DNA of 64,000 bases from Ignavibacteriae bacterium HGW-Ignavibacteriae-1 (GTDB lineage: Bacteria; Bacteroidota; Ignavibacteria; Kapaibacteriales; UBA2268): positions 1 to 64,000 of the forward strand of contig PGYU01000002.1 of assembly GCA_002839825.1 (NCBI GenBank), read 5' to 3'. Made by a program: the position numbers and the translations under genes. Position 1 is the stretch's first letter. Every line of letters begins with the position of its first letter. The notes below the pieces were generated by a model. It saw only the letters and a list, made by a program, of their open reading frames with translations. It was not told where the DNA came from and did not search any database. This document shows positions 26,103-43,396 of this stretch, piece by piece.

Positions 26103-26573
26103 ATGTTGTATGAAAGTGAAGATTTGGCAAAAATATTGCAGGAAAAGTCGGAGCAAGGCAAAAAAATCGTCTTCACAAACGGTTGCTTCGATATACTCCA
26201 TGCCGGACATGTTAAGTATCTCGAGCAATCTAAGAAATTGGGCGACGTGCTTGTTATCGGGCTAAATAGCGACGATTCGGTCAGAAGATTGAAAGGAGAT
26301 TCTCGCCCTGTGAATAATCAGATGGATAGAGCAATAGTTCTCTCGGCACTAAGAGCAGTTGACTACGTCTGCTTTTTCGACGAAGATACTCCATTAGAGC
26401 TAATTATGCAACTGAAACCGGATATCATTACAAAGGGTGGAGATTATACAGTCACAGATGTAGTCGGTGGCGAATTTGTAATCAACAATGGGGGCGAGGT
26501 AGTAATTATCGAGCTTGTCGAGGGGAAATCAACAACCAGCACAATTCAACGACTTAATGCTACAAAACAATGA
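26103..26573 (+). CDS. hldC: D-glycero-beta-D-manno-heptose 1-phosphate adenylyltransferase (RfaE domain II)
   Basis: From ATG 26103 the protein is 156 residues, the usual length. The nucleotidyltransferase motif HAGH lies in '[20 protein letters not shown]' and the second motif 'TSTIQRL' near the end. It converts heptose 1-phosphate plus ATP to ADP-heptose. An open frame extends upstream into the kinase gene, but that part is out of register with the family. It overlaps the next gene by 4 bp. Confidence 0.93.
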
Positions 26574-27406
26574 AATACACACTATTTATATTGATTTTTC
26601 TAATGATTTCCTGCTCCAAGAGCAAGGAAGTTTACGTGGTAGAGGACGAGAACATAAAAATGGATACAAATGCAAATCAATCGGAAAGCATATTTGTTAC
26701 CAAGAATGCATCAATTCCCTATGATTTTGAACTTGTTCGGGTTATACCAAAAGAACCAATGGCATACACTCAAGGGTTGCTCTTTCATAATGGGCAGCTT
26801 TACGAAAGCACAGGGCAATATGGCAGGTCATCAGTCAGGATAGTTGACCACAACACAGGGAAAGTGTTGAAGTCAAAGAAAATTAGCCCGCAACACTTTG
26901 GTGAAGGGATCGCGATTATGAACGATAAATTGTATATGCTTACGTGGACTTCGCGAACTTGCTTTGTTTTTGACCCTGTCACATTTAAAGAAATTGAGTC
27001 TTTTACATATCCATCGGAAGGTTGGGGACTGACTGATTACGGTGATAAATTAATCAAAAGTGATGGCAGCTATTTTCTAAAAGTCATTGACCCCGAAACT
27101 TTCAGAGAGGAAAATGCGATAACTGTGGTTCTAAATGGGAGACCACTGACCAACTTGAACGAATTGGAATATGTGAATGGATTGCTTTATGCAAATATCT
27201 ATATGTCCGACAAGATTGCAGTAATAGAACCGGAAACGGGAGAAGTCTTGAGCATAATTGACTTCGGGAAATTACGTTCGTACGAAGAAAACAACAAAGA
27301 TGCTGAAGCATTTAACGGCATCGCTTACAATCCGGCAACAGACACATTTTATGTAACCGGAAAAGATTGGCTGAACTACTTTGAAATTAAGTTTTTGAAT
27401 AATTAA
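26570..27406 (+). CDS. Glutaminyl-peptide cyclotransferase, lipoprotein
   Basis: 278 residues. The N-terminus is a lipoprotein signal ([15 protein letters not shown], lipidated Cys15). The rest is the five-bladed beta propeller of plant/bacterial-type glutamine cyclotransferases: '[20 protein letters not shown]', '[14 protein letters not shown]', '[15 protein letters not shown]', '[18 protein letters not shown]', '[19 protein letters not shown]'. The enzyme turns N-terminal Gln into pyroglutamate, which in this branch often matures exported proteins. T9SS and SPI cargo with Gln after signal cleavage would be natural substrates (inference). Coupled to the heptose gene by 4 bp. Confidence 0.9.
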
Positions 27407-27579
27407 TTTTAATTAATTTGGAAATATAATAAGAATATCATAAGTTTACATTCTATTATTTATCACTATTCTGGAGCGAATTCGTAAAATTGTTTCTATT
27501 TGTTTAGTAACGCGAGGTTTTTATAGGGCGGAGAATTCTACAAACTGATTTTTGTAGAACATGCAAATAGGGGCTAAAT

Positions 27580-28248
27580 ATGCGAGTTTACTCAGAACCG
27601 AGAAAAACTCTTGTTGTTGACTTACACGCCATTCATTCCGAAAGGCAATATTACATTCGTGTGAAACGTGCTTTAGACGTAGTCTTAGCGCTCACCATGA
27701 TTGTGCTTTCATCGCCACTGCTGCTGATTACCGCACTATTAATCAAACTCACAACAAGAGGACCTGTAATATATACCCAAATTCGTCTGGGGCAATTCGG
27801 TCATAAGTTCCTTATTTACAAATTCCGAACAATGTACACATCGGCAGACTTCGACCACGAGCAGTTCGACATCGAAAAAGCCAAAGGCACTTTCATCAAA
27901 TCTCCCAAAGACCCACGAATCACGACTATCGGCAGATACTTGCGAAACACAAGCATTGATGAGCTTCCGCAGCTATTCAATGTACTGTTTGGCGATATGA
28001 GTATTGTCGGACCACGTCCATCGGAAGAATTCTTCTTTTTGAATAATCAGCGATTCAAAGATATTAGATTAATTGTCAAACCCGGAATGACCGGATTATG
28101 GCAAGTGAAAAATCGGAGCAATCATTGTACGATTTTTGATATGATTGACTATGATATCGAATATATTCAAAACATGAATTTATGGAATGATATAAAAATC
28201 ATTTTGATGACAATCCCTGCTGTTTTGCAAGGGGAAGGTGCCGTTTAG
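27580..28248 (+). CDS. Undecaprenyl-phosphate sugar phosphotransferase (bacterial sugar transferase domain)
   Basis: 222 residues, only the catalytic half of the PF02397 family. After about 28 residues there is one hydrophobic segment ('ALDVVLALTMIVLSSPLLLI'), then 'RGPVIYTQIRLGQFGHKFLI', 'YKFRTMYTSAD', 'TSIDELPQLFNVLFGDMSIV' and 'GPRPSEEFF', all signature blocks. It should start a polysaccharide or O-antigen unit by moving a sugar-1-phosphate onto the lipid carrier. No further glycosyltransferases follow, so its product is unknown. The 173-bp upstream gap holds a TTCTACAAA/TTTGTAGAA inverted repeat at about 27535-27560 that could be regulatory. Confidence 0.9.
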   Translation: MRVYSEPRKTLVVDLHAIHSERQYYIRVKRALDVVLALTMIVLSSPLLLITALLIKLTTRGPVIYTQIRLGQFGHKFLIYKFRTMYTSADFDHEQFDIEKAKGTFIKSPKDPRITTIGRYLRNTSIDELPQLFNVLFGDMSIVGPRPSEEFFFLNNQRFKDIRLIVKPGMTGLWQVKNRSNHCTIFDMIDYDIEYIQNMNLWNDIKIILMTIPAVLQGEGAV

Positions 28249-28291
28249 CATCCGACTTCGTTTTTGGGGCTTTATTTGCTATTTAATCATA

Positions 28292-28333
28292 TTTAGGGTG
28301 CAAGGCATATTATCACATGTTTTGCACCCTAAA
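28292..28333. terminator. Inverted repeat between sugar transferase and grpE
   Basis: TTTAGGGTGCAA (28292-28303) and its complement TTGCACCCTAAA (28322-28333) bracket an 18-nt loop. It is only followed by ACTTTTAA, so it is a weak terminator or a transcript-stabilising hairpin rather than a textbook terminator. Confidence 0.5.
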
Positions 28334-28471
28334 CTTTTAATGTAGCGAAAATATGAAAGCCACTTTTGTGTAGCTTCTACACACGTTTTCTATTCATTTT
28401 TTTTTCATGTCATAAAATCTTCCATTATACGTTATCATATAATTAAATATAAATTTGGTGGAGATTTTAAA

Positions 28472-29176
28472 ATGGATGAGCAAACAGGAAATCAAAAAAA
28501 ACCATTGCGTCCTGCTCCAGATAAAAAACAGGACATTTACAATACATATTTGAAAAATGAAAAAAGTCGTAATATACCGATTCAAGATTTGGAGGAAGAA
28601 TTTAAAATGAATAAAAATAATAAAACGAACGATGAACTCGAAAATGAAAATGTCGTTCAGGATTCAAGCAACAATGAAATTGAAATTTCAGAATACGTTG
28701 ATGTGATTAACGAATTAAACAAACAAAACGAAACACTTATGTCCGAACGTGACGATTTGAAAGAGCAACTTATTCGCAAAGCCGCCGAACTCGAAAATGT
28801 TCGTCGCCGCAGCATTCGCGAAAAGCAAGAAATGATTGATTTTGCGAACGAAAGATTGCTATTCAAAATGCTCGAATTACTTGATGACATTACTTCAGCG
28901 TCTAATGCATCTCACCAAACAACTGATTTTGATAGCTTAGTCAAGGGCTTGGATATGATTCAAGCTAAAGCTATGAAGCTATTCGACGAAGCGGGCGTGA
29001 AGAAAATGGAAGAAAATATCGGTTCGCAATTCGACGTTAATTTCCATGAAGCACTGATGCTTGCTCCTTCTGAATTACCTGAAGGTGCAATTGTACAAGT
29101 GATTCAACCCGGCTATATGATAAAAGAAAAAGTTTTACGTCACGCAAAAGTCATCACCTCAGCCGGAAATCAATAA
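28472..29176 (+). CDS. grpE: Nucleotide exchange factor GrpE
   Basis: 234 residues. It releases ADP from DnaK. The long N-terminal part (about 1-80) is low-complexity and charged, then a coiled coil ('INELNKQNETLMSERDDLKE'), then the GrpE core 'KAAELENVRRRSIREKQEMI', 'LVKGLDMIQAKAMKLFDEAG', 'FDVNFHEALMLAPSELPEGA', and the final beta domain 'GYMIKEKVLRHAKVIT'. GGTGGAG lies upstream of ATG 28472. An internal ATG at 28607 would give a shorter protein but loses an upstream region of similar composition. dnaJ follows after 17 bp; dnaK is elsewhere. Confidence 0.95.
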   Translation: MDEQTGNQKKPLRPAPDKKQDIYNTYLKNEKSRNIPIQDLEEEFKMNKNNKTNDELENENVVQDSSNNEIEISEYVDVINELNKQNETLMSERDDLKEQLIRKAAELENVRRRSIREKQEMIDFANERLLFKMLELLDDITSASNASHQTTDFDSLVKGLDMIQAKAMKLFDEAGVKKMEENIGSQFDVNFHEALMLAPSELPEGAIVQVIQPGYMIKEKVLRHAKVITSAGNQ

Positions 29177-29193
29177 AATAGGACATTAAAAGT

Positions 29194-30354
29194 ATGGAAA
29201 AGCGCGATTATTATGAGATATTGGGTCTGGACAAAAACGCTACATCTGAGCTAATCAAGGCAAATTACCGTAAAATGGCGATTAAGTATCATCCGGACAA
29301 AAACCCTGGTGACCCCGAATCAGAGAACATGTTTAAGGAAGCTGCCGAAGCATACGAAGTGCTCAGTGACCCGAACAAAAAAGCTCGCTACGATCGCTAT
29401 GGTCATCAAGGTTTGCGCGGTGGGCAAGATTATCACACATACCATAATATGGAGGATATTTTCTCCTCTTTTGGTGATATTTTTGGTGGCGGCGGAAGCA
29501 TATTCGATAGTTTTTTTGGTGGTTCAAACGCAGGACGTGGCAAACGTTACTCAGGCGAACCCGGGGCGGACATTAAGATTAAGCTGCCTATGACTTTGGA
29601 AGAAATTTCCGAAGGCGTCGCAAAAACTTTGAAAGTTCGCAGACTTGTGACTTGCTCTACGTGCTCCGGTACTGGTGCTAAGTCCGGCGGCAAACGGACT
29701 TGCAGTGCATGTAATGGTCACGGCGAAGTTCGCCAGGTGTCGCGTTCCGTTTTCGGGCAATTCATCAATGTTTCCGTTTGCCAAACATGCAGCGGGTCAG
29801 GCGAGGAAATCACCGATAAATGTACTGATTGCCGTGGCGAAGGAAGAATTTTTGGTGAAGATAAAATCAAAATTGATATTCCTGCCGGTGTCGAAGAAGG
29901 AAACTACATTCCGCTCCGTGGCAAGGGTCACGTCGGCAAAAATGGTGGTGCATCTGGCGATTTGATGGTAATCATCGAAGAGAAAAAGCACGCTTATTTT
30001 GTTCGCGACCGAAATAATATCATCTACAATCTTAATATCACATTCCCGCAAGCCGCTCTGGGCGATAGCGTAGAAGTGCCGACACTGACGGGCACTGAGG
30101 ATATTAGAATCGAAGCCGGCACACAAAACGGTACAAAATTGAGAATCAGAGACAAAGGGATTCCATATCTGAATTCATCGGGTAGGGGAGACCAATATGT
30201 GATTTTGCATATTTCGATTCCCACAAAATTGACATCGAAGGAAAAGGAATTAATTGAAACTCTGGCAGAGCTTGATAATTTTTCACCTACACAATTAAAT
30301 AATAAAGAAAAAGATAAAAATATTTTCGAGAAAATCAAAGATGCATTTGTATGA
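29194..30354 (+). CDS. dnaJ: Chaperone protein DnaJ
   Basis: 386 residues, full type I layout: J domain with HPD at 'IKYHPDKNPGDPE'; Gly/Phe-rich linker ('FSSFGDIFGGGGSIFDSFFG'); four-repeat zinc finger 'CSTCSGTGAKSG', 'CSACNGHGEVR', 'CQTCSGSGEEI', 'CTDCRGEGRIF'; and C-terminal substrate domains. It works with GrpE (upstream) and DnaK in protein folding. A terminator follows at 30383. Confidence 0.97.
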   Translation: MEKRDYYEILGLDKNATSELIKANYRKMAIKYHPDKNPGDPESENMFKEAAEAYEVLSDPNKKARYDRYGHQGLRGGQDYHTYHNMEDIFSSFGDIFGGGGSIFDSFFGGSNAGRGKRYSGEPGADIKIKLPMTLEEISEGVAKTLKVRRLVTCSTCSGTGAKSGGKRTCSACNGHGEVRQVSRSVFGQFINVSVCQTCSGSGEEITDKCTDCRGEGRIFGEDKIKIDIPAGVEEGNYIPLRGKGHVGKNGGASGDLMVIIEEKKHAYFVRDRNNIIYNLNITFPQAALGDSVEVPTLTGTEDIRIEAGTQNGTKLRIRDKGIPYLNSSGRGDQYVILHISIPTKLTSKEKELIETLAELDNFSPTQLNNKEKDKNIFEKIKDAFV

Positions 30355-30382
30355 TTATTTAAATAATTCAATATTTTTCGAT

Positions 30383-30423
30383 AATTCCAAGTTGTTTATA
30401 TTTAATAACTTGGAATTTTTTTA
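30383..30423 (+). terminator. Rho-independent terminator after dnaJ
   Basis: AATTCCAAGTT (30383-30393 approximately) pairs with AACTTGGAATT (30407-30417), followed by a T run. It ends the grpE-dnaJ unit. Confidence 0.8.
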
Positions 30424-30541
30424 TTTATATTAATAATATATAATTTTTTGCGATTTAATGACATTAATTTTCAGATTTGGAAATTGCAATTTTCCTACTT
30501 AGTTTTGCAAGTGAGATTTTTAACTAATAGTGGAAATTGTT

Positions 30542-32020
30542 ATGTCGAATGCCCCTCAAGTAGAACTTGCAAGGCTCACATTATTGAATGAAAAACGCTT
30601 TATCACTGCATCACTGAAGTACATTCGCGAGATGTTCTCCAACTACGGATTCGATGATAGGGAACTAATGCAAATCGAGCTCGTCGCCGAGGAAACGTCA
30701 GTAAGCATTATCGAAAACTCCTTCGATGCGGATGAGAGCGGATATTACGACATTGCCCTAATTCGGCAGCCGAACAAAATCGTGCTTGCATTCGAGGACA
30801 AAGGCTTGCCATTCGATGTGAAGCAACTGGAAAGCAACGATGAGGGAGCGCTCCGGCTACTTCTGATGAAAAAGATAGCCGACGAGCTGCATTTTATCAA
30901 TCTTGGCAAAAATGGCAAAAGAATCGAAATCCACAAAAACTTGCCTGCAAAAACTATTGCGGAATATACTGAGCAAGACCTTTCGCCGATTGACCCCGAA
31001 ATCACACGCGCCACAGATGATGTGGAATTTATGCTGATGAGTTCCGAGCAATCAGTCGCTTTGGCACGCTGTGTCTATCGCTCTTACGGGCTGACTTATG
31101 CGGGCGATTTCATCTACTATCCCGAGAAAATTAGCGAGTTGCTCGATTCCAAGCTGTTGCGCTCTGTGGTGGCAATCAATTCCGAAGGCGAACTCGTGGC
31201 ACATCTGGGGCTGAATTTCTTGACTGAGGGCGCTAAAGTGGGCGAAACCGGACAAGCTGTGGTTGACCCGCGTTATCGGGGGCGAGGACTATTCGAAAGC
31301 ATGAAAAAATATTTGGCAAAACATTCGCAATCTATCGGCGATTTTGGCTTTTATAGCGAAGCAGTCTCGATTCATCCATATACCCAAAAAGGCAACATCG
31401 CGCTCGGCGGGCACGAAACTGGAATTGTGCTCGGCTACGTCCCACCCAACTTGACTTTCAAGAAAATAGGTGATTTGGGCGAAGGCAAGCGCCAAACCGC
31501 AGTCTTGTTCTATCTTCGTGTGAATGAGGAGCCTCTGCGACAAGTATATCTGCCGGAGAATCACAGTGAAATGCTCACAAAAATTATAAATGAAAATAAC
31601 TTGAATCGCGAATTAAAATCAGTGGGCGATGATTTCACAGTCGAGCATGAAAAATCCGAAATTGAAGTTCGTGTCAAACCCGATTGGGGACAGGCTCATT
31701 TGTTAGTCCACCGCTTTGGTGCTGACTTCCCCGATGTTATTGCATATAATTTGCGAGACGTTATCCGCCGCAAAATCGAATATATTTATCTTGACATGCC
31801 GTTCAGCAACGCCGCTACTGCACACTTTTGTCCGATGCTTGAATCCTTGGGCTTCTTCTTTTCGGGCATCATCCCCGAGCTTTTCAATGGGGACGCCTTC
31901 CGATTGCAATATCTCAATCATGTAGAAATCGAAGCCGACAAAATTTGCACCGCATCAGATTTCGGCAAAGAACTACTCAATTATTGCCTTTCAGAACGTG
32001 AAAGAGTTGGCGGGGCTTAG
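30542..32020 (+). CDS. Anti-sigma-type HATPase fused to GNAT acetyltransferase
   Basis: 492 residues from ATG 30542 (GTG 30530 is the alternative). Residues 1-135 look like an RsbW/SpoIIAB-type HATPase_c_2 domain: 'QIELVAEETSVSIIENSFDA' in N-box position, with the conserved Asn replaced, and 'FEDKGLPFD' as G1 box. Residues about 150-310 are a GNAT fold: 'LARCVYRSYGLTYAGDFIYY', 'VAHLGLNF', and the acetyl-CoA loop 'VVDPRYRGRGLFESMKKYL'. A third, unassigned region follows. A plausible role is regulation by phosphorylation/partner switching coupled to acyl transfer, but this is inference. The last codons GGG-GCT-TAG come from the downstream G-rich repeat. Confidence 0.75.
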   Translation: MSNAPQVELARLTLLNEKRFITASLKYIREMFSNYGFDDRELMQIELVAEETSVSIIENSFDADESGYYDIALIRQPNKIVLAFEDKGLPFDVKQLESNDEGALRLLLMKKIADELHFINLGKNGKRIEIHKNLPAKTIAEYTEQDLSPIDPEITRATDDVEFMLMSSEQSVALARCVYRSYGLTYAGDFIYYPEKISELLDSKLLRSVVAINSEGELVAHLGLNFLTEGAKVGETGQAVVDPRYRGRGLFESMKKYLAKHSQSIGDFGFYSEAVSIHPYTQKGNIALGGHETGIVLGYVPPNLTFKKIGDLGEGKRQTAVLFYLRVNEEPLRQVYLPENHSEMLTKIINENNLNRELKSVGDDFTVEHEKSEIEVRVKPDWGQAHLLVHRFGADFPDVIAYNLRDVIRRKIEYIYLDMPFSNAATAHFCPMLESLGFFFSGIIPELFNGDAFRLQYLNHVEIEADKICTASDFGKELLNYCLSERERVGGA

Positions 32021-32127
32021 GGGTTGGGGCTTGGGTTTAGGGGTTTGGGATTGGAGGCTTGGGGCTTGGGTTTAGGGGTTTGGGATTGGAGGTTTGGGGT
32101 TTGAGGTTTGAGGTTTGGGGTTTGGGA
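32011..32127 (+). repeat. G-rich heptamer array (GGGGTTT/GGGGCTT type)
   Basis: The plus strand is a run of variants of GGGGCTT, GGGGTTT, GGGTTTA and GGATTGG with essentially no C. It starts GGGGCTTAGGGGTTGGGG and supplies the stop codon of the upstream gene (TAG 32018-32020). Strong GC skew makes G-quadruplex formation possible. Confidence 0.85.
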
Positions 32128-32370: not shown

Positions 32371-32400
32371 TTAAACTAATTTATTAAAGGAATAATTTCC

Positions 32401-32925
32401 ATGCAAAAGCCTGAATCAAACGAACATAGACCATATTTCAAAAATTATATAGACTTGGTCCCCGACGGCGACTTCTTCCAACTTTACGACCAAAACACCG
32501 AAGAAGTCGCAAGATTTTACTCGTCTATTGATCCATCAAAGCATGAATATCGTTATGCGGAAAACAAATGGACTCCCAAGCAAGTCCTGCTGCACGTTTG
32601 CGACACAGACCGGATCTTTTCCTATCGCGCTTTCGTTTGCATCCGTGGCGACGGCAACACTCTGCTCAAGCCCTTGAACGAGAACGCATATGCCGCCAAC
32701 GCAGACGGCAACAACCGCTCTATGGATAGCATAGTTGCCGAGTTCAGGGCAGTCCGCGCCGGCATGAGACATCTACTTGAAAATGCAAGCGAGGAGCAAA
32801 GCAAATTCTTAGGCAACAACGACGGATTCAAGGTTTCCGCACGCGCCTTGGGCTTTATCACAATCGGTCACGCTATTCACCACATGAACATAATCAAAGA
32901 ACGCTATTTGGGGCTTGGGGCTTAG
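32401..32925 (+). CDS. DinB-superfamily protein
   Basis: 174 residues forming the four-helix DinB/YfiT bundle. 'KWTPKQVLLHVCDTDRIFSY' and 'ALGFITIGHAIHHMNIIKER' supply the three His that usually bind a metal (His in LLHVCD, and HAIHH near the C-terminus). Members include thiol transferases and DNA-damage-induced proteins; the substrate here is unknown. The gene is sandwiched between two copies of a repeat element. Its final codons (LGLGA-stop) are written in G-rich heptamers, so the native C-terminus has probably been replaced. Start ATG 32401 follows AAAGGAATAATTTCC. Confidence 0.85.
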   Translation: MQKPESNEHRPYFKNYIDLVPDGDFFQLYDQNTEEVARFYSSIDPSKHEYRYAENKWTPKQVLLHVCDTDRIFSYRAFVCIRGDGNTLLKPLNENAYAANADGNNRSMDSIVAEFRAVRAGMRHLLENASEEQSKFLGNNDGFKVSARALGFITIGHAIHHMNIIKERYLGLGA

Positions 32926-33030
32926 GGGTTGGGGGATGGAGCGCGGGGTTTGGGGTTTGGGGTTTGGATATTGTATTTTTACCACGAAGTGGTTAAATGT
33001 GAATAACCGCGTATGAAATGCGGGGAAAGA
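32908..33030. repeat. Second G-rich heptamer array plus double hairpin
   Basis: The plus strand again runs GGGGCTT/GGGGTTT heptamers (32908-32968) beginning with the same GGGGCTTAGGGGTTGGGG string as the 32011 copy. At 32981 ACCACGAAGTGGTTAAATG and CCGCGTATGAAATGCGGGG repeat the two-hairpin layout with a different first stem. It supplies the stop of the DinB gene. Confidence 0.8.
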
Positions 33031-33074: not shown

Positions 33075-33827
33075 TTAAATTAAATTCTCTCTTAAAGGCA
33101 AAAAATAAGTATATGTTACTTTAATTTCACCCTTAAATTCTTTCTTAAGTTTTTCAATTTGTTTACAATTATTATGAATCCAACAACTTGATTTGTAAAC
33201 TTCTTCTAATTCAGGCAAAGAACATCTTTCTGAATTATCGTTCTTTCCTAAAACAATGGCGATAGGATTTGCATCTTGAATTTCATCTAAACTCATAAGC
33301 CTTTTAGCAGTAATTATTGGTTCGCCAAATACTGCCCATTCAGAATAATTATCATCCCCAATTTTATCAAGACAAAGTTTTCCGTATGAAATGCCAACAC
33401 GAAATTTGTATTCAGATTCATTCTTGTATGAATATTCTATTAAACCTCCGATTATTTGACCCAACTTTGCATGTGTATGCATTTGTGATTCTTCTTTATG
33501 TGGTAAAATAAACATTACTTCATCACCAATAGTTTTATCAATCAAACACTCTTTTTTTACCAGAATATTGATAATCTCATTCAAGAACGACTTCGAAAAG
33601 TCTCTAATTTCTAAAGAGGTTTTACCATTACAAAATTTACTATATCCTTTTAAATCAATGAAACCAACGTAGCTTGAAATTTCTTTGTTCCCATATGTTT
33701 CAATTAATGATTTTGAAGTATTATTATTTTCTAAAGACTTAGTTATATAATTATCAAAGCCCTCTTGAAGGATTTTAGTGCCAAATCTATGATTCAACCA
33801 TTGATTAAGTCTTTCATGTATTATCAT
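33075..33827 (-). CDS. Stand-alone class III nucleotide cyclase, last gene of the R-M operon
   Basis: 250 residues, one cyclase homology domain at about 50-210 preceded by a short helical N-terminus; no signal, membrane or sensor domain. Both metal-binding Asp are present: D58 in 'GFIDLKGYSKF' and D102 in 'DKTIGDEVMF'; K98 sits at a base-specifying position. In the later motif 'WAVFGEPIITAKRL' the usual base-specifying Asp is Ala165 and the transition-state Asn is Ile172, while Arg176 is kept. Such changes leave open cAMP, cGMP or the pyrimidine cyclic nucleotides used in Pycsar defence. It starts 3 bp after the restriction-methylase C-terminal half. No TM or TIR effector is visible nearby. 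Confidence 0.8.
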   Translation of the reverse strand: MIIHERLNQWLNHRFGTKILQEGFDNYITKSLENNNTSKSLIETYGNKEISSYVGFIDLKGYSKFCNGKTSLEIRDFSKSFLNEIINILVKKECLIDKTIGDEVMFILPHKEESQMHTHAKLGQIIGGLIEYSYKNESEYKFRVGISYGKLCLDKIGDDNYSEWAVFGEPIITAKRLMSLDEIQDANPIAIVLGKNDNSERCSLPELEEVYKSSCWIHNNCKQIEKLKKEFKGEIKVTYTYFLPLRENLI

Positions 33828-33830
33828 TGT

Positions 33831-35171
33831 TTATCTCCCCATCTCCTTAACAATCTTGACTGTTTCGACGCTGACGGTGGTGACACGCATCAGCAGGTCT
33901 ATGACTTTGTCCTTGTAATCGGCAAAGCGGTATGTGTTGAACTTTTCGGCGATTGTAGGGTCTTTGGGTTTCTTTTCTTTGTATTGGTCAAGTATCCATT
34001 CCAAAGCGGAGCGGTTGCCGAGTTTATATTCCCATGCTTCTTTGGGCACTCCGGAGAGTGTCGTGATGTTGTCCAATTCGATTGTTCCGCTGTCCTTATC
34101 AGCTTTCAATTTCGGCTTATAGACTTCGTTTTTCAGCTCAATTGTAGTTACTTTGAGCGGAAATTCTGTAGCTGTTTCAAAGTTGATATGCAAATCCATT
34201 AGCTTTTTGCCCCAATCCGCCCATTTCCAAAAGTCATCGTAAAATGGTACGCGTGGGAACTCACGTTTCAGGTTCATTTCGTATTTCTTGCGATATGCCT
34301 GGTTGTGCAAGACTGCGTAAACATAGTGGAAAATGTCTTCTTTTGTTATGGTTTGGTCGGTATAATTATTGTGGAACTGCTCTAAGCCCCAGTCTGTGAT
34401 GTTGTCAATTACTTCATTATTTGACATAAAGTACAACGGAAAACACTGATTATCTCCTATGAAATGAAGGTCTGAAACATAATCAGAAGCTAATATTCTA
34501 TAATCCTTTGAGTTAACATTGAAATTAATAATTTTATTAATATCATTTGATAAGTTAAAGAACTTTCGATTTTGATATGGTTCGTGAATAATTCTATGGT
34601 CAAAATCCAGATAACAGCATAATTTTACAAATGGTCTATAATTTATGCTTTTTATTTTTTTTGCATCAAATTCAATCTTTTTGTTCTTTAAAAAGTCATT
34701 GTTGATAAATTCTCTTGTAAATTTAATATGAGTACCCAAATAATCAGCAAGTTTTTTTCTATCTTCGATAACAATACTCTTTTCTGAGCTTATTATTTCA
34801 TTGAAATTGCTTAGCTTTAAATTATAATATTCTATAAAATATTGTATTTTGTTTCGTAAATTTAATTTGTCATAATCGTAAACCCAATCGTCTCTATTTG
34901 ATACAATGCCTAAAGTGTAATTCTTAAAAATGGCTGTGTCATTCGATATGGACTTGTTAAATTTGGTCTCTTTATTAGCAATGGGTATCATCGCTTCCCA
35001 ATCATTAACAGATAGATTAATCCAGTTGTTGTTCTTATCAGGAATGATATGGTCGAAAGGAACTTTCCTTATTGGATTATCTCTTAAGAAATCTAACTTC
35101 TCATCCCTTGTTGCTCTAATATCGGTAGGGTGAATGTAGAATATCGCACATCTTTTTTTTTCGTTTTTCAT
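33831..35171 (-). CDS. Restriction-methyltransferase, C-terminal (specificity) half
   Basis: 446 residues that match the second half of one-polypeptide restriction-methylation enzymes: 'AIFYIHPTDIRATRDEKLDF', 'DHIIPDKNNNWINL', 'INYRPFVKLCCYLDFDHRII', 'VYAVLHNQAYRKKYEMNLKR', 'FPRVPFYDDFWKW'. It holds the end of the methylase lobe and the target recognition region. In intact relatives (recalled, not searched) this sequence continues directly from 'GVSAAVGIAIMFLVK', which here ends the gene at 35474. The start MKNEKKRCAIF lies 6 bp after the small ORF's TAG, in the same frame, with stops TAG and TAA just before it. Reinitiation is likely. Confidence 0.8.
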   Translation of the reverse strand: MKNEKKRCAIFYIHPTDIRATRDEKLDFLRDNPIRKVPFDHIIPDKNNNWINLSVNDWEAMIPIANKETKFNKSISNDTAIFKNYTLGIVSNRDDWVYDYDKLNLRNKIQYFIEYYNLKLSNFNEIISSEKSIVIEDRKKLADYLGTHIKFTREFINNDFLKNKKIEFDAKKIKSINYRPFVKLCCYLDFDHRIIHEPYQNRKFFNLSNDINKIINFNVNSKDYRILASDYVSDLHFIGDNQCFPLYFMSNNEVIDNITDWGLEQFHNNYTDQTITKEDIFHYVYAVLHNQAYRKKYEMNLKREFPRVPFYDDFWKWADWGKKLMDLHINFETATEFPLKVTTIELKNEVYKPKLKADKDSGTIELDNITTLSGVPKEAWEYKLGNRSALEWILDQYKEKKPKDPTIAEKFNTYRFADYKDKVIDLLMRVTTVSVETVKIVKEMGR

Positions 35172-35177
35172 TTTTTA

Positions 35178-35471
35178 CTATTTTTTATTTTTGAAGAATA
35201 CTCGCCAATCATTTTCAATTATCCTATTCATTATTTCAGGATGAGAAATACAGTTCTTTTTTATTGGCATTCTTACTCTATCTCCTTTTTCATTGCATTC
35301 AACCAAATCAAAAAGATAATTATTGACATTGCTTTTTACTTTGCAGTAAATTTTAGTATTTTGCATACTATAAATTTCAAAGATATCATCATTGGTAAAA
35401 ATCAAATTATGATAGTACTGATGATCATTTCTCTCGAATCTTTTTAGATCCTTGTATTCATCCTTTGTCAT
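35178..35471 (-). CDS. Unrecognised 97-residue protein inserted between the two R-M halves
   Basis: 97 residues, hydrophilic, mixed alpha/beta by eye (MTKDEYKDLKRFERNDHQYY...IFTNDDIFEIYSMQNTKIYC...RIIENDWRVFFKNKK). It has two Cys besides many Asn, Lys and Tyr. I recognise no HNH, GIY-YIG, LAGLIDADG, intein or HTH motif. It begins 2 bp after the stop of the N-terminal half and ends 6 bp before the C-terminal half, exactly where the intact enzyme family has no sequence. Base composition is more AT-rich than the flanking halves, which suggests separate acquisition. It could be a subunit linker, a regulator or an anti-defence/immunity factor, but function is unknown. Confidence 0.65.
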   Translation of the reverse strand: MTKDEYKDLKRFERNDHQYYHNLIFTNDDIFEIYSMQNTKIYCKVKSNVNNYLFDLVECNEKGDRVRMPIKKNCISHPEIMNRIIENDWRVFFKNKK

Positions 35472-35473
35472 TT

Positions 35474-37264
35474 TTAATCCTTTATTTTAACTAAGAACAT
35501 AATTGCAATTCCAACTGCGGCTGAAACACCAAAAATAGTATTTTTTTCGTTAAGAAATATTCCGTCTTTACCGGATAACTCTCTAATGTTACCGCCTAAA
35601 TCAATGATATAAGCGTAGTCAAATTCTTCTTGTATTGTCTTTCTGAATCCGTCAAATGTTCGGGCATTTATAAATGAGTTGTTCGTTATAAATGCAATTA
35701 CACCCTCATCACCAATTCTATCCATAGCCCATCTGTAAAAACGGCTGTACATATCATAGACTTTAGTTTTTTGGGCTGTTGAGTGTTTGATGTATGTGTC
35801 TTTGATTCTCTTGTCTATAATCGGATATTCGCGGTTTTTGTTGTTGTCGTTTTCGTTCATCTGATTGGCATTGTAGGGCGGATTGCCTATAATGACTGAG
35901 ATTTTGCGTTCGTTTTGCTTTTTGATTCTTTCTGTATTTTCAGCGGAAACACTGAAGAGTTCATCAACCTTGTTTTTGTAATCGAATCCCATGTTGTCGA
36001 GCGTATCAACAAAGCACAGATTCTTGAACTCAGCATATTCTTCCATGCGTTGTTTGTAGGTGAATTCGATATTCAAATTTGCGATATAGTAGGGCAAAAT
36101 AGCCACTTCGTTAGCGTGGATTTCGTTCTTGTACTTGTATTCGAGCTTGTCTTTGGGCAAATAATCAATCAAATCGCAAATGAAAGTGCCTGTGCCTGTT
36201 GCAGGGTCGAGTATTTCCACATTTTTATCCGACAAAAATCTTCCAAAATGCTTATGCAGAAGATAATCCGTGCTTTCAATCATAAATCGGACGATTTCGT
36301 TTGGCGTATAGACCACTCCGAGCCGGTCGGCAGCCTTGGGATTGTAGGACTTGTAGAAATTTTCGTACACAATTTTCAAAAATTTCTGCTTTTCGTGATG
36401 GTCTGCAATTCCTGCTGCTGCTACATTGATAGCTTGATAATAAATGTTAATCTTTGACAGCAGATTTTCTCTAATTTGCCTCGTAAAGAAAGTATTAATC
36501 ACGGTTTCCAACTGCTTAGCAATGTTATTTTCGCGATGGAAATATGGCTCGTCAAAAATCGTATTGAAAATATCGGCAGTCAGAATATGCTGAATCATCA
36601 TTTCATTAATATCATCGAGAGTAATTTCCGGATTGATAGATTGCTTACATATTTCATGAAATTCTAATAGTTTTGTTATAAATTTTTGATTAACTGTACT
36701 TTTGTTTTCAGCTACTAAACCCTGCTCCCCATAACCTAACTGCTCGTTTATCATATTTCGCAATGCAGTGACGACATTCGGAATATCGCTTTTGAAAAGT
36801 TCTATTGCAGCCCGAAAATTGGCAACTTCCGGACGCTGATAATTGACAAAAGATTTGATTAAACTGTCGAGTGCGAGAGCGTTTTGAACATCGGCACGAA
36901 TGACTTCGCGACCACCTTGGAACAATACGGCAGTTTGGCTGTCCTCGAAAAGTATGTTATCCTTAGGGTAGCCTTTGGCAAATTTCTTTTTGATTTCCAA
37001 ATCAATATCATCGTCCTCGTCTTTACTTTCCCAATAACCCCAATCGAGTCTGAGCGAATCTTTGAGGGTCCCATCGGGAGTTATGGTTCTACCGGTAGAG
37101 GTTTTGATAGATAATTCAGGTATCAAAATCAGTCCATTTTGCGAAGCGTAATGATTGAGCAGATTATAAAAGGAATTGCGTATTGCAGTTTCCTTAGTGC
37201 TACCACTGTAATCCTTGACTTTCTGCAGTTCATTCTGATAATGTTGTATAGCGACTAACGACAT
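35474..37264 (-). CDS. Restriction-methyltransferase, nuclease plus N6-adenine methylase half
   Basis: 596 residues. Residues 55-110 form a PD-(D/E)xK nuclease: D64 in 'ITPDGTLKD' and E79-S-K81 in 'WGYWESKDE'. A helical linker (120-310) precedes a gamma-class N6-adenine methylase with motif I 'DPATGTGTF' at 353 and motif IV N461-P-P-Y464. There is no helicase domain, so it is closer to type IIG-like enzymes than to ATP-driven type ISP. It stops at '...GVSAAVGIAIMFLVKIKD', before the specificity region, which is a separate downstream gene. Start ATG 37264. It heads a four-gene minus-strand operon ending in the cyclase. Confidence 0.85.
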   Translation of the reverse strand: MSLVAIQHYQNELQKVKDYSGSTKETAIRNSFYNLLNHYASQNGLILIPELSIKTSTGRTITPDGTLKDSLRLDWGYWESKDEDDDIDLEIKKKFAKGYPKDNILFEDSQTAVLFQGGREVIRADVQNALALDSLIKSFVNYQRPEVANFRAAIELFKSDIPNVVTALRNMINEQLGYGEQGLVAENKSTVNQKFITKLLEFHEICKQSINPEITLDDINEMMIQHILTADIFNTIFDEPYFHRENNIAKQLETVINTFFTRQIRENLLSKINIYYQAINVAAAGIADHHEKQKFLKIVYENFYKSYNPKAADRLGVVYTPNEIVRFMIESTDYLLHKHFGRFLSDKNVEILDPATGTGTFICDLIDYLPKDKLEYKYKNEIHANEVAILPYYIANLNIEFTYKQRMEEYAEFKNLCFVDTLDNMGFDYKNKVDELFSVSAENTERIKKQNERKISVIIGNPPYNANQMNENDNNKNREYPIIDKRIKDTYIKHSTAQKTKVYDMYSRFYRWAMDRIGDEGVIAFITNNSFINARTFDGFRKTIQEEFDYAYIIDLGGNIRELSGKDGIFLNEKNTIFGVSAAVGIAIMFLVKIKD

Positions 37265-37385
37265 TTATATGCCTTCTTTTTATTATTTATTTTCCAAAAC
37301 GCAAAATTGCATTCTACAAACATAACAATTTTATAATATTCATTTCTTGACTCATTTCAACCTTTTCATTTTGTCAGCTAAGCCC

Positions 37386-37419
37386 AAAAAAAATCCCCCT
37401 TTTTCTCAAAAGGAGGATA
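37386..37419 (-). terminator. Probable terminator of the tandem paralogue cluster
   Basis: On the minus strand ATCCTCCTTTT and AAAAGGGGGAT can pair around a short loop, followed by a run of eight U. It lies about 40 bp past the stop of the last paralogue. The sequence resembles the genome's CCCCCT repeats, so it may be a co-opted repeat. Confidence 0.65.
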
Positions 37420-37456
37420 TCGTATGCTTTAAAGGAGTGGTGCATTTATGAGTATT

Positions 37457-40231
37457 TTAGAGAGAAATTTTCTTGCTCATCCAAATGCCATTGATTTTGA
37501 GATGGAGCATATAAACGCCGGAAGTCAATCCGGGGACGGCTGCGCTGTAAGAATTTACACTGTTGGTAAGCTCAGAAGTGAACAATGTTCTGCCGTTCAA
37601 ATCATATACTTTCATACCGGAAATTGTGGCATCGTGCTCGGAGCGGAATGTAATTGAGGCTCCGTCATAATTTACCGCGAAGGTTCCGCCAAATAGTTTG
37701 TCGTCAATTACTGATGATGGAATTGCAACTCCGGTGACTTTAGCTTCATCTCTTACTACATATGCGTCAGTGATGACTTTTAATGTTGCTTCAAATTCAC
37801 CCGGTTCAGTAGGTGTGAATTTTACAGCTATCTTATATACTTCGCCTGCAGGTAATATAAATGGTTCTTCTTCTGAAACTGTCGGCAAATCGAATGAAAA
37901 TACCGGACTGCCACCAATTTCAATTCCTGTGATAAGCAAATCTACCGAGCCCATATTTGTGATTAAGACATAGCTGTCTTTTACGGGTTCGCCAGCCATC
38001 TGTGTGTAGAAATTTGTACCTACAATATCAAAACGCGGGTTGGCAACTTCGGCAAGGAGATTATCGAAATAAATCACATCGTCATTTTCCAATTTGATGC
38101 CAATCTGATTTGCAAATTTCCCTTCGATTTTTTTAATATCATCTTCGTTCATATTGCGGGCATTGAAACGAACTTGGAATTTGTGCTCTTCGCCGGGTTC
38201 GAATATTTTGTTAGATTCGATATTATTAATAATTTCAAATTGTGGGTCATTTTTCGAGAATATGATTGAATTGGCAGGCACAGTGCTCATGCTTTCAACA
38301 TTGGTTAGTGTAAATTCAAGTTCTTCAAATTTACCTGATTTCAATTTGCCGAAATTAGTTTCAGTGGAAACAATCGTTGGAGCAGGGGACGCAACAATGC
38401 TGAATTCGACAATTTTATCGTTGCCTCTTCTATCGGTCACAGCAAGAACTGCTTTTGATGATTTATACTTATTGTGCACATTTATTTGGAAATTTGTTTC
38501 GTTATCAATTCCCGGGATAAACGGAGTATATTCGAGTTTGTAATTATCGCTAAGTGCATTAATCAATCTAACCGATGATAGTCCGGCTGCATTTGATTCT
38601 TGTACCTCGTCGCCGTCCTTGCTGATTTTTGAGCTTGGTTGAGCAACGTCACGAACTACACCTGTGATGTTGCCCTTTTCGTCCATTTCGTAGTCTATTT
38701 CAGGGGCGAGCGAGTCGTCGGAGGACATGTCAAGAAGTCTGCCTGATGCCGGATAGCCGTATGAATCAAAGCTGTCATATCCGTATGCATAAACCGCAAA
38801 TGGTTCATCAGCTTTCATTCTATATACGCCATCATGATCCAGTTTTAAAGTTTTGGAGTAATATTGACGCCCGTCTTTTTCCTCTCCATAAAATGGGGTT
38901 CCCGGCGAAGAACTTATATTTTTCACAGATATCCAATTTAATTCTTCGGCTTTAGCTTCTGCAAACATTAAATCTTCAGGAATTGTGCCATCTGCTTTTG
39001 CCAAATAAACTATATTGATAAAATTATCGTTAAACCCAAATCCACCTTTAATCCCGGGTGTATTGAATATTATATCAGTTTGGAATTGTTCTACCGGTAA
39101 TATTTGCATTTGGAATGGGTCGGATTCTACTCCATCATCTTGTTGTCCCGGATTATATTGAACAACGTTTATTGCTTTATCAGATGATATTCTGGCAGGT
39201 TTTGGTGTTGCATCAGAGCCTGTTCTCGTTTCAATATATCCTCTACTTTTAAATCCGCCTGCGAATTGGATTGTTCCTGCAGGTATACCGTTAATTGAAT
39301 ATTGAGTCATATCTTCAGCAGCAAAAATCTTAACTATACTATGGTTTTTTCTAGCCTGAATTGGTGCAACTAAATAGTTCTTGCCCCAGTTATAAATTGG
39401 CAATTCTTGCTCTATAATATAGTCACATGCTGCTATATGAGATGGAATATAGGCACAGAAATTTCCTGATATAACAGCAACAGGTTTATCGGCATTAACG
39501 TTCGAACCCGTCAAATCATTAAAGGGACCGACTCCGGCAATCAACCAAACGTCGCCTTTGTGAATCATTTTGCTCATGCTTTGTCCGGCTCTCATTGTAT
39601 CACCGGTTTCTTTAATTATCATCATAGTCTCAAAGCCGCCAAGTTTGAAATTTACAGTAGTATTATCATAAGCACCGACTATACTTGTGTAGCTTGGCAG
39701 AAATTGAGAGGTATTGCTAGTAGGGTCTTCATAAGATGCTACTTGATAATCCGTACCAAGTACGTTAATTGGCAATGCCATATATCCATCAGAAGTGTAC
39801 TTGTAACGTGTCATCCCATAACAAATTATCGGGTCATCAGCAGTTATTACGATTGCTCTACCTGCCCATACTTGTGATGGTTGTGGTCTAATCGGCAAGC
39901 CCCCATTTCCTTTGGAATAAGCCTGAGCTACAGCGGGAGTTAAAGCAAATTCAATTACATCATTTGGTATAGTTTCTTTAACAATTGTAATGGCAAGACC
40001 GGGTATGCTAAGTGTAACTTTTGTCTTGTAGAGCGAGGCGACATAAATTCGGATGGCATTATTGGGTCCAGGATCTTCCCAACATGGATGGAAAGTCATC
40101 AGGAATTCAGTTCCGGCGTTGGAAGCGCCAAGCAACAGCGATAGCTTGTCAATATCGGACTCATCAGCCCTAAGTGAGGAAAGCGGCAATAAAATAGCAA
40201 TTGCCACTACAAAAAGAAGAAAATGTTTCAT
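37457..40231 (-). CDS. IgGFc-binding-like T9SS secreted protein, paralogue 1
   Basis: 924 residues from ATG 40231 (an upstream 26-codon extension has no signal character). Signal peptide MKHFLLFVVAIAILLPLSSL. Residues about 35-450 match the IgGFc-binding N-terminal type domain ('GTEFLMTFHPCWED', 'QVWAGRAIVITADDPIICYG', 'MALPINVLGTDYQVASYEDP', 'IVGAYDNTTVNFKLGG'). Ig-like/ASPM-type beta domains follow (about 640-840, 'FTPTEPGEFEATLKVITDAY'). The end is a T9SS type A sorting domain ('GMKVYDLNGRTLFTSEL', 'GLTSGVYMLHLKINGIWMSK'). It is therefore probably displayed on or released from the outer surface, with an adhesin-like role inferred. Confidence 0.85.
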   Translation of the reverse strand: MKHFLLFVVAIAILLPLSSLRADESDIDKLSLLLGASNAGTEFLMTFHPCWEDPGPNNAIRIYVASLYKTKVTLSIPGLAITIVKETIPNDVIEFALTPAVAQAYSKGNGGLPIRPQPSQVWAGRAIVITADDPIICYGMTRYKYTSDGYMALPINVLGTDYQVASYEDPTSNTSQFLPSYTSIVGAYDNTTVNFKLGGFETMMIIKETGDTMRAGQSMSKMIHKGDVWLIAGVGPFNDLTGSNVNADKPVAVISGNFCAYIPSHIAACDYIIEQELPIYNWGKNYLVAPIQARKNHSIVKIFAAEDMTQYSINGIPAGTIQFAGGFKSRGYIETRTGSDATPKPARISSDKAINVVQYNPGQQDDGVESDPFQMQILPVEQFQTDIIFNTPGIKGGFGFNDNFINIVYLAKADGTIPEDLMFAEAKAEELNWISVKNISSSPGTPFYGEEKDGRQYYSKTLKLDHDGVYRMKADEPFAVYAYGYDSFDSYGYPASGRLLDMSSDDSLAPEIDYEMDEKGNITGVVRDVAQPSSKISKDGDEVQESNAAGLSSVRLINALSDNYKLEYTPFIPGIDNETNFQINVHNKYKSSKAVLAVTDRRGNDKIVEFSIVASPAPTIVSTETNFGKLKSGKFEELEFTLTNVESMSTVPANSIIFSKNDPQFEIINNIESNKIFEPGEEHKFQVRFNARNMNEDDIKKIEGKFANQIGIKLENDDVIYFDNLLAEVANPRFDIVGTNFYTQMAGEPVKDSYVLITNMGSVDLLITGIEIGGSPVFSFDLPTVSEEEPFILPAGEVYKIAVKFTPTEPGEFEATLKVITDAYVVRDEAKVTGVAIPSSVIDDKLFGGTFAVNYDGASITFRSEHDATISGMKVYDLNGRTLFTSELTNSVNSYSAAVPGLTSGVYMLHLKINGIWMSKKISL

Positions 40232-40322
40232 AATACACCTCAAAATGTTTTTTAAAAATTCAATTATTATCCTTTTATTATTCAAACTCTTGTGGCAATT
40301 TTGCCACACTAAGAGTAAATTA

Positions 40323-43091
40323 CTAAATTATTATTTTCTTGCTCATCCATATGCCATTGATTTTGAGATGAAGCAGATAAATGCCGGAAGTCAATCCGGG
40401 GACGGCTGCACTGTAAGAATTTACACTGTTGGTAAGCTCAGAAGTGAACAAGGTTCTGCCGTTCAAATCATAAACTTTCATGCCGGAAATTGTGGCATCG
40501 TGCTCGGAGCGGAAAGTAATTGCGGCTCCGTCATAATTAACGGCGAATTTCCCGCCCTCCAATTTATCATCAATGACTATTGCGGGGATTGCAAGTCCTC
40601 TAATTTGAGCAACATCATTAATTACATAGGCATCACTGATGACTTTCATAGTTGCGGAATAATCTCCCGGTTCTGTAGGAACAAAACTTGTTTTAATCCT
40701 ATATTCTCTACCTGAACGAATTGTGATGGGCTTTTCTTCGGAAACTGAAGGTAAATCGAATGTAAATTCGGGATTGCCGTTTACTTCAAATCCCGTGACA
40801 AGCATATCTACAATGCCGAGGTTTTTGATAACTACAAATTCACTTTTAGCAGGTTCGCCTTCCAATTGCGCAGTGAAATCTATTCCTGAAACTACTACAC
40901 GCGGATTTGCGACGGCTGCAGAGAGAGTACTGAAATAATGTATTTCGCCATTTGCCAATTCAATTCCAATTTGATTTGAAAATGCCCCTTCGATGTTTTT
41001 AATATCATCTTCATTCATATTGCGAGCGCTGAATCGAACTTTGAATTTGTGTTGTTCACCTGCTTGGAACACTCTGTTAGCTTCAATATTATTCATAATT
41101 TCAAATTGTAGGTCATTTTTCTCAAGCACTATAGAATTGATAGGCACAGTATTATTAGTGTCTTGATTAGTCAATATAAACTCAAGTTCAACAAATTTTC
41201 CTGATTTCAATGAACCAAAATTTGCAGTATTAAAAACAAGGTTCAGGATTGGAGATGCCACAATATTGAATTCGACAATTTTATCGTTGCCTCTTCTATC
41301 AGTCACTGCAAATATCGCCTTTGCTGATTTGCTTTTATCTATCACTTTTAATTGGAAACTTGTTTCGTTGTCAATCCCGGGAATAAACGGAGTATTATCG
41401 AGTTTGTAATTATCGCTAAGTGCATTAATCAATTTAACCGACGATAGTCCTGTTGCTTGTGATTCTTGCACTTCGTCGCCATCTTTGCCTACTTTGCCCG
41501 ACAATTGTGAAACGTCTCGAACAATACCACTAATATTAAAATTCTCGTCCACTTCGTACTTTATTTCAGGAGCCACTATGTCTTTTGAAGACATGTCCAG
41601 AAGCATGCCCGAAGCAGGGAATCCATATGAATCATAGCTATCATAGCCATATGAATAAACCGCAAATGGCTCGTAAGCTGTCATTCTATATACACCATCA
41701 AAATCCAACTTTAAAGTGGCTGCATAATATTGACGACCGTCTTTTTCTTCGCCATAAAACGGTTGAGCATCGGTTATTAAATTTTTCAACGGCGTCCAAT
41801 CAAGTCCACCATCAATAACTTTGGTAAACTTTAAATCATCAGGGATTGAACCGTCTGCATTTGCCATAAAAACTATGTTTATGTAATTTTCTCGAAATGC
41901 TAAACCACCTCTTATTCCGGGTGTGTTGAAAATGGCATCGGTTTGGTATTGTCCAATCGGAAGAATTTGCATTTGAAATGGGTCGCTTTCAACTCCATCA
42001 TCTGCTTGTCCCGGATTGAAGAGAACAACGTTGATAGTTTTGTCTGAGGAGATTCTGACAGGCTTTGGAATAGAATCAAGCGTGGCTCTCATCTCAATAT
42101 AACCGCTATGCAAAAAGCCACCCGCGTTTTGGATAGTTCCTGCAGGTATATCATCAAATGAAAATTTTGTATTATCTTCTGCCGCAAAAATTTTAACAAT
42201 TGATGCTTTTCTTCTTTCAATTACACTTGCGACTAAATAATCCTTCCCCCAATTATAAATTGGTAATTCTTGTTCAATAATATAGTCACATGCTGCTGCT
42301 TTAGTCGGTATCATGCTACAATAGTTCCCGGATATAACAGCTACCGGTTTATCTGCATTTATATTCGAGCCTGTTAAATCACCCAATTTTCCGACTCCGG
42401 CTATCAACCAAACGTCTCCTATGTTGAGCGTTCTAGTCATACTTTCACCGGCTCTAAGCGTATCGCCGTTTTCCATAATAACTAACATACTTTCGAATCC
42501 GCCAAGTTTGAATTTTACTGAAGTGTTGTCATAGGCACCGACTATACTTGTATAACTGGGGAAAAATTGACCGAGATTGTTTGCGGGATCGGCAAAGGAA
42601 GCGATTTGATAATCTCTGCCCAGAACGTTTCTGGGTAATGCCATATAGCCATCGGAAGTATGTTTAGTCCGAGAGACACCATAACAAATAATCGGGTCAT
42701 CTGCCGTTACAATGATAGCTCGGTTTTCCCATACTTGTGAGGGCGGAGGTTTAATCGTTCCGGCGGCACCATTGTGATACACTTGAGCTTCTTCCTGAGT
42801 GAATGAAAATTCTATTACATCATTTGGGATTGTCTCTTTAACAATTGTAATGTCAAGTGCGGGTATTCGAAGTGTAACTTTTGTCTTGAACAGTGAGGCA
42901 ACATAAATTCGTATTGGATTAGGGGGTTCATTGCCTCCCCAGCCCGGATGAAAAGTCATCAGAAACTCAGTCCCTGCATTGGAAGCGCCAAGCAACAATG
43001 AAAGCTTGTCCATATCGGATTCTTCAGCCTTCAGTGATGAAAGAGGCAATAGAATTGCTATTACTGATATAAAGACAAGAAAATGTTTCAT
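40323..43091 (-). CDS. IgGFc-binding-like T9SS secreted protein, paralogue 2
   Basis: 922 residues from ATG 43091 with signal peptide MKHFLVFISVIAILLPLSSL. Layout is identical to paralogue 1 and most blocks can be aligned by eye. The last about 70 residues are almost the same ('AITFRSEHDATISGMKVYDL', 'NSVNSYSAAVPGLTSG'), and the DNA there is nearly identical too. The variable parts are mid-domain loops such as 'VASVIERRKASIVKIFAAED'. The spacing to paralogue 1 is 91 bp with no terminator. A recent tandem duplication with ongoing gene conversion at the 3' end is likely. Confidence 0.85.
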   Translation of the reverse strand: MKHFLVFISVIAILLPLSSLKAEESDMDKLSLLLGASNAGTEFLMTFHPGWGGNEPPNPIRIYVASLFKTKVTLRIPALDITIVKETIPNDVIEFSFTQEEAQVYHNGAAGTIKPPPSQVWENRAIIVTADDPIICYGVSRTKHTSDGYMALPRNVLGRDYQIASFADPANNLGQFFPSYTSIVGAYDNTSVKFKLGGFESMLVIMENGDTLRAGESMTRTLNIGDVWLIAGVGKLGDLTGSNINADKPVAVISGNYCSMIPTKAAACDYIIEQELPIYNWGKDYLVASVIERRKASIVKIFAAEDNTKFSFDDIPAGTIQNAGGFLHSGYIEMRATLDSIPKPVRISSDKTINVVLFNPGQADDGVESDPFQMQILPIGQYQTDAIFNTPGIRGGLAFRENYINIVFMANADGSIPDDLKFTKVIDGGLDWTPLKNLITDAQPFYGEEKDGRQYYAATLKLDFDGVYRMTAYEPFAVYSYGYDSYDSYGFPASGMLLDMSSKDIVAPEIKYEVDENFNISGIVRDVSQLSGKVGKDGDEVQESQATGLSSVKLINALSDNYKLDNTPFIPGIDNETSFQLKVIDKSKSAKAIFAVTDRRGNDKIVEFNIVASPILNLVFNTANFGSLKSGKFVELEFILTNQDTNNTVPINSIVLEKNDLQFEIMNNIEANRVFQAGEQHKFKVRFSARNMNEDDIKNIEGAFSNQIGIELANGEIHYFSTLSAAVANPRVVVSGIDFTAQLEGEPAKSEFVVIKNLGIVDMLVTGFEVNGNPEFTFDLPSVSEEKPITIRSGREYRIKTSFVPTEPGDYSATMKVISDAYVINDVAQIRGLAIPAIVIDDKLEGGKFAVNYDGAAITFRSEHDATISGMKVYDLNGRTLFTSELTNSVNSYSAAVPGLTSGIYLLHLKINGIWMSKKIII

Positions 43092-43396
43092 TACAAGCCT
43101 CGAATATGTATTTAAATTCAATTCCTTATGTTTTTCGCTTTAGTTTTGTGGCATTTATACCACACACAGAGTAAACATGTACATTAATTTTCACATTAAA
43201 TTGTTGTTTTCCATTCACTTTGCCGTCCGTTATTTCTCCGTAAGTCGCTATGAGACAAAGCCTTTAAATTTTTGCGTAAATGTTAGTATCAACTAATATT
43301 GCAAGAAAGATGCCATACAAGTATGACATCAGTCTCATGCTCACTTCAGAGCTATTTTTTAAACATTAATAATTTCGACTAAAACATTGCTTTTGT

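Follow-up and report, generated by a model that had tools for sequence, protein, structure and literature searches.

Why should a restriction-methylase that is normally a single gene be found as two, with a small open reading frame (ORF) lying exactly at the break? The question is raised by a 64,000-nucleotide stretch of contig PGYU01000002.1 from Ignavibacteriae bacterium HGW-Ignavibacteriae-1 (assembly GCA_002839825.1), hereafter the window, in which three tightly packed genes on the minus strand (37264-33831) encode an N-terminal half, a 97-aa ORF and a C-terminal half of such an enzyme (Table 1). An initial annotation had described a restriction-methylase in two genes with this ORF at the break, spacers of 2 and 6 bp around it, and the motifs D64, E79-x-K81, DPATGTGTF and NPPY in the N-terminal gene. 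The gene coordinates bear out the arrangement and the spacers, and every one of the motifs is present in the translation. The coordinates given at that time (35178-37264) take in the N-half and the insert only, and the C-half lies just beyond them. All three frames are uninterrupted, with clean start and stop codons, each gene has its own start codon, and tandem stops (TAG TAA) stand between the insert and the C-half. The insert is co-directional with both enzyme halves and, with spacers of 2 and 6 nt, sits inside the presumed operon of the defence system.

Table 1. Features of the split restriction-methylase locus, in window coordinates.
Feature	Position	Strand	Description
N-half (RM chain; P0001)	35474..37264	-	596 aa; D64, E79-x-K81; ISP coupler; N6-adenine methylase; Pfam ISP_coupler, Eco57I, N6_Mtase
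Insert gene P0002	35178..35471	-	97 aa, function unassigned; starts 2 nt past N-half stop; homologue P0004 in L084
C-half (specificity chain; P0003)	33831..35171	-	446 aa; starts 6 nt past insert stop; Pfam Type_ISP_C
Exchanged cassette (approximate ends)	34424..35638	-	Methylase tail + insert + C-half recognition part; replaced in same-genus G432

The two halves belong to one enzyme. In PADLOC, the best model for both is the same Type IIG restriction-methylase (PDLC03621 REase_MTase_IIG), with N-half residues 1-593 aligned to model positions 1-584 (E=6.3e-194) and C-half residues 20-443 to positions 602-1011. The closest solved structure is 7lo5, which we take to be DrdV; N-half residues 1-593 align to its residues 1-577 (E=3.7e-200) and C-half residues 5-444 to its residues 585-1024 (E=9.4e-108). 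The C-half carries a Type_ISP_C specificity domain in one stretch (Pfam E=3.5e-86, residues 80-426 of 446). A check proposed earlier, whether the halves together cover intact homologues from one end to the other, thus has a clear answer, as the 7lo5 alignments stop at N-half residue 593 and resume at C-half residue 5. The N-half terminus reads GIAIMFLVKIKD and the C-half opens with MKNEKKRCAIFYIHPTDIRAT, and the statement in the initial annotation that one follows the other immediately in intact relatives is matched by the intact gene L105, which reads straight across the joint as GIAIMFLVKKKLPEKLSCQINYIHPTDIRATR; the window reads GIAIMFLVKIKD, a stop, the insert, and then MKNEKKRCAIFYIHPTDIRATR. 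Judged by these alignments, the enzyme is a restriction-methylase of the 7lo5 (DrdV) kind, split at the joint between methylase and specificity domain, and no residues are lost between its two halves.

Comparison with characterized systems shows where the locus departs from them. DrdV (7lo5/7lvv), a single-chain Type IIL/IIG enzyme, has the same domains in the same order, from nuclease motif to N6-adenine methylase to specificity domain, and both halves align with it over almost their full length; however, DrdV is one chain, whereas the window enzyme is two chains, from genes that are separated by stop codons and an ORF. The Type ISP enzymes LlaGI (5ffj) and LlaBIII (4xqk) share the coupler, methylase and Type_ISP_C specificity domain with the window halves, but are single chains with a helicase-like ATPase, which, in the sections available of PMC4666363, defines Type ISP by its place between nuclease and methylase. 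P0001 has no Pfam helicase match, and LlaGI aligns with it only from query residue 200. The Type IIB enzymes BcgI and BsaXI, as far as the excerpts available describe them, consist of an RM chain and a separate S chain, as the window's genes would if their products assemble in that manner; yet their S chains have two recognition domains, in contrast to the single Type_ISP_C of the C-half, and the window locus differs further in having a gene between RM and S.

Is the 97-aa ORF a gene at all? The initial annotation held that an insert with neither homologues nor purifying selection would probably be a spurious ORF, and advised a search for the same split-plus-insert order in other genomes. On reading the inserts of other split loci, we found it with a homologous insert once elsewhere, in L084, a Bacteroidales MAG with a 104-aa ORF (P0004) at the same joint, of which 33 of 95 aligned residues are identical to P0002 (E=5e-18). 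The L084 genes overlap (N-half ending at 915, insert 912-1226, C-half 1219-2505), and its contig starts within the N-half, which places the first ~287 residues of that half outside the contig. The P0002/P0004 alignment scores 144, against a mean of 27.6 and a maximum of 50 in 2000 shuffles. Identity at codon positions 1, 2 and 3 is 47, 60 and 44%, compared with 31, 33 and 30% for random pairing, and the antisense frames match weakly (E=0.001, 21.6 bits). Chance is ruled out for the insert, because its homologue lies at the same joint in another genome, and by these comparisons the 97-aa ORF is a real gene whose family is conserved at the protein level. An insert homologue in frame within intact enzymes would have made the split look like an artefact; a profile of the insert matched no continuous gene in the 170 fetched sources scanned, and returned only the window and L084 copies plus three weak matches in unrelated proteins.

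A third true member of the family was found in none of the genome, viral, plasmid, phage or PDB-sequence searches. Among genomes, in sets that overlap (class, order, phylum, family), the profile matched 1/294 in the window's class (the window's own genome), 0/98 in another class, and 2/295 in the order of L084, namely the genome of L084 and one match judged to be chance. Single-sequence searches at E<=0.01 matched 4/395 genomes in the phylum and 6/54 in the family, all but the window's own genome being judged chance. Viral contigs, plasmids and phages gave no credible relative, nor did PDB sequences (a single match, E=0.52) or genome_contigs, a search that depends on exact matches to short conserved peptides and therefore covers close relatives only. 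Several candidates were set aside: the phage match MT837348 (E=0.3) was not reached by the two-sequence profile at E=0.1; L003, L004, L006, L007, L038, L041 and L042 have internal stops; L040, a 366-aa frame (E=0.0024), was not reached by the profile at E=0.1; and L005 (profile E=0.035), L039 (E=0.019) and L125 (E=0.0033) were judged chance matches, lying in proteins that, named from sequence by eye, resemble a CBS protein, a secreted protein and a CHAT/TPR protein, respectively. The family thus appears so far only in the joint slot, with two members at two loci.

None of the curated families reaches its cut-off with P0002 (Pfam DUF223, E=0.0078, and DUF3232, E=0.06, both fall under theirs), and there is no match to a toxin or antitoxin family of the PemK/MazF type II kind. 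A type II toxin-antitoxin module has two genes; the window and L084 each have one. The predicted models, both built from the same two sequences, have a mean pLDDT of 66.3 (P0002) and 63.6 (P0004). With them Foldseek gave no match at E<=0.001, and VIA-align gave a best Z of 6.1 (7pik_B), with Tudor/spindlin-like barrels at Z 5-6, a level rated common. The low-confidence model of P0002 has an N-terminal helix followed by a small beta-barrel-like domain, and a small beta-barrel is a possible fold, too uncertain to decide the role of the protein; the family, Foldseek and VIA-align comparisons together gave no recognisable motif or confident fold. P0002 appears to be a soluble protein and, with a pI of 8.75 (P0004, 6.75), is not acidic; it is therefore no obvious DNA mimic.

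The joint itself can be followed through relatives of the enzyme. We read 98 distinct joints in loci that were collected by similarity to P0003, and hence are no random sample, with loci lacking a visible joint excluded; 93 are continuous, four are split with one or more genes between the halves, and one is frameshifted (L094), "continuous" referring to the joint alone, as L087 and L104 have an in-frame stop farther upstream in the methylase and locus or contig ends truncate many of the genes. A further 17 Bacteroidales joints, which may overlap with the 98 as the sets were not de-duplicated, are all continuous. Besides the window and L084, the split loci are L130 (the same locus as L044), in which both halves are full length and the slot holds a 278-aa BRO-N protein matching PADLOC PDC-S13, where PDC stands for "phage defence candidate" in the available part of PMC11514479, and L112, in which the slot holds a PemK-like toxin and an 82-aa ORF. 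The C-half of L112 falls into two separate frames, and this enzyme may be dead or its sequence faulty. Neither P0003 nor the slot gene of L130 has relatives in viral contigs. Among the continuous genes the linker at the joint is variable, and additional peptides in frame (repeat-like by eye) occur there in L082, L087 and L104, which marks the joint as a permissive place.

Three more C-halves stand alone. In L127 (G411:C127, 6339-2915, minus strand) a YhcG nuclease gene, a gene close to the BRO-N gene of L130 and a stand-alone C-half follow in series; in L126 the C-half lies behind DUF559, 395 nt apart; and in L128 (G411:C99, 102-2586, plus strand) a DUF3800 gene is followed by a C-half broken into two frames. 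These three were left out of the count, their N-halves lying beyond the contig end, and are suggestive only. Short stand-alone C-half frames in Bacteroidales were likewise not counted as splits, since their 5' side meets the contig end in the 6 contigs fetched. As a separate observation, L087 and L104 (both Synechococcales MAG S06.Bin197) have a similar repeat-like peptide with an in-frame stop (PPSPP*KGGLGGV and PPMSPP*KGGLGGV), at matching positions of the two methylases, ~156 codons upstream of the C-half match.

The splits have separate histories. A FastTree tree built from 98 methylase-core sequences pairs the window with the continuous gene of a genome from the same genus (L129, support 0.997), and groups L084 with the continuous L081 and L103 (0.983) and L130 with the continuous L101 (0.98). 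Each of these split loci groups with continuous genes, and the splits therefore arose independently. The window and L084, although they share the insert family, are neighbours neither in the core tree nor in a tree of the specificity domain; the insert gene therefore entered, or stayed in, the same joint of different enzymes.

The same-genus genome (G432) has its continuous gene at the syntenic place, and shows what has changed around the break. Window positions 26403-32023, 32377-32928, 33839-34424 and 35638-40319 align collinearly with L129 at 89-95% nucleotide identity, and between 34424 and 35638 just one 90-nt piece still matches (79%). In place of the window's methylase tail, insert and recognition domain, G432 has another methylase tail, a longer linker and another recognition domain. 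The comparison identifies the methylase tail and recognition domain as an exchanged cassette, which in the window contains the insert. The base composition of the insert (GC 0.262) is close to that of the exchanged recognition region (0.278 over the opening 780 nt of the C-half); GC is 0.433 in the remaining C-half, 0.378 in the N-half and 0.389 in the window. Outside the cassette, comparison with the same-genus gene gives a dN/dS of 0.033 for the N-half (539 codons) and 0.121 for the C-half (197 codons), values that include time before the split and so are alone no proof of an active split form; inside the cassette dS is saturated. By this measure both ends of the enzyme are under selection.

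Given these results, we think it probable that the locus encodes an RM+S enzyme of two chains, with a joint that serves as a recurrent slot for embedded accessory genes, and that the 97-aa protein is an accessory, a guard or modulator, produced together with it. An RM chain (nuclease, coupler, methylase) and a separate S chain would be translated in tandem and re-associate at a natural domain boundary. This boundary would be a permissive joint that has received accessory genes on several independent occasions. The 97-aa gene would be one such embedded accessory, its product most probably a small guard or modulator that works together with the enzyme or by way of it. The gene order, the joint, the homologue, the repeated splits, the selection on both ends and the cassette exchange are observed; we infer that the chains re-associate, that the enzyme is active and that the small protein has a role. 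Precedents exist for such a division. In the sections available of PMC3510504, M and S of EcoKI function both as separate, translationally coupled chains and as a fusion, and BcgI has its recognition function on a subunit of its own, so a split at this joint would be expected to be tolerated. There are also precedents for embedded genes: as far as the available excerpts go, DarTG2 lies in a Type I system between hsdS and hsdR (PMC12255303), and PrrC is embedded in a restriction-modification locus and triggered on inhibition of its restriction enzyme (PMC12707154). Like the window insert, both are extra genes inside a restriction operon, but as described there they lie between separate hsd genes, whereas the insert is at the break of a normally single gene; we found no sequence relation of the insert to either. 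In the partial literature searched, we found no report of such a split enzyme enclosing a gene.

For the role of P0002 we rank guard or modulator first, independent cargo second and structural subunit third. On the cargo reading, the 97-aa gene would be self-contained and defence- or toxin-like, and the joint a tolerated, expressed landing place. The PemK-like toxin pair in L112, the candidate defence gene in L130 and the low GC of the insert fit with this. However, cargo would be expected to have copies elsewhere, and no true copy outside the slot was found; in addition, a lone toxin would need an antitoxin, and a single gene is present. We consider this reading rather unlikely.

The initial annotation had suggested a three-part enzyme. 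A homologous gene does occur at the same joint of two independently split enzymes, packed tightly with both halves, and genome searches gave no true homologue elsewhere. Yet other splits at the joint carry unrelated genes, which argues that a bridging protein is not generally needed, and there are two examples only. It had also argued that a random insertion would not leave such tidy borders; repeated insertion at one permissive joint would leave them too. Since unrelated genes fill the joint at two other split loci, location by itself is weak evidence of joint function and cannot establish the 97-aa protein as a subunit. We see a limited chance that P0002 and P0004 serve a new, tripartite restriction-methylase as its dedicated third component, made between the RM and S chains and controlling their assembly or sensing inhibition of the enzyme by phage, and find it doubtful that the enzyme requires the 97-aa protein as a third subunit to bridge or position its two chains.

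It is improbable that the split inactivated the enzyme and left the insert as a passenger in a decaying locus: some relatives are indeed frameshifted (L094) or broken (L112, L128), but the open window frames, the low dN/dS at both ends and the protein-level conservation of the insert family speak against decay. An assembly chimera is very unlikely, and the wider set of chimera, intron, intein or programmed read-through has hardly any probability, as nothing beyond the unusual gene order favours it and it is opposed by the synteny that flanks the locus on either side in G432, the recurrence of the gene order in an unrelated genome (L084), the lack of any Rfam match at E<=0.1, and the separate starts and tandem stops. 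No element ends were seen near the insert, just short A/T-rich repeats.

A two-chain enzyme with an accessory slot, the reading that we prefer, would carry "guilt by embedding" beyond multi-gene restriction loci, into an enzyme that is normally encoded by a single gene. The joint between methylase and specificity domain would become a searchable slot for undescribed defence accessories, with P0002/P0004 as the first candidate new small-protein family from it. In other bacteria this joint holds a related small gene (in one distant Bacteroidales MAG) or other defence-type genes, and the recurrence of the insert family, together with the other genes in the slot, strengthens the original observation. 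Natural two-chain forms also bear on the interconversion of fused and split restriction enzymes, and on changes of specificity through swaps of S chains.

The neighbourhood of the locus holds two further features. A 250-aa class III nucleotide-cyclase-like ORF (33075-33827, minus strand; Pfam Guanylate_cyc E=3.1e-8, PADLOC PycC E=3.4e-8) starts 3 nt past the C-half stop, with no obvious effector partner seen, in a stretch that is absent from the syntenic place of G432. Next to the restriction locus lie two long tandem paralogues of 950 and 932 aa (37457-40309 and 40323-43121, minus strand) with nearly identical C-termini.
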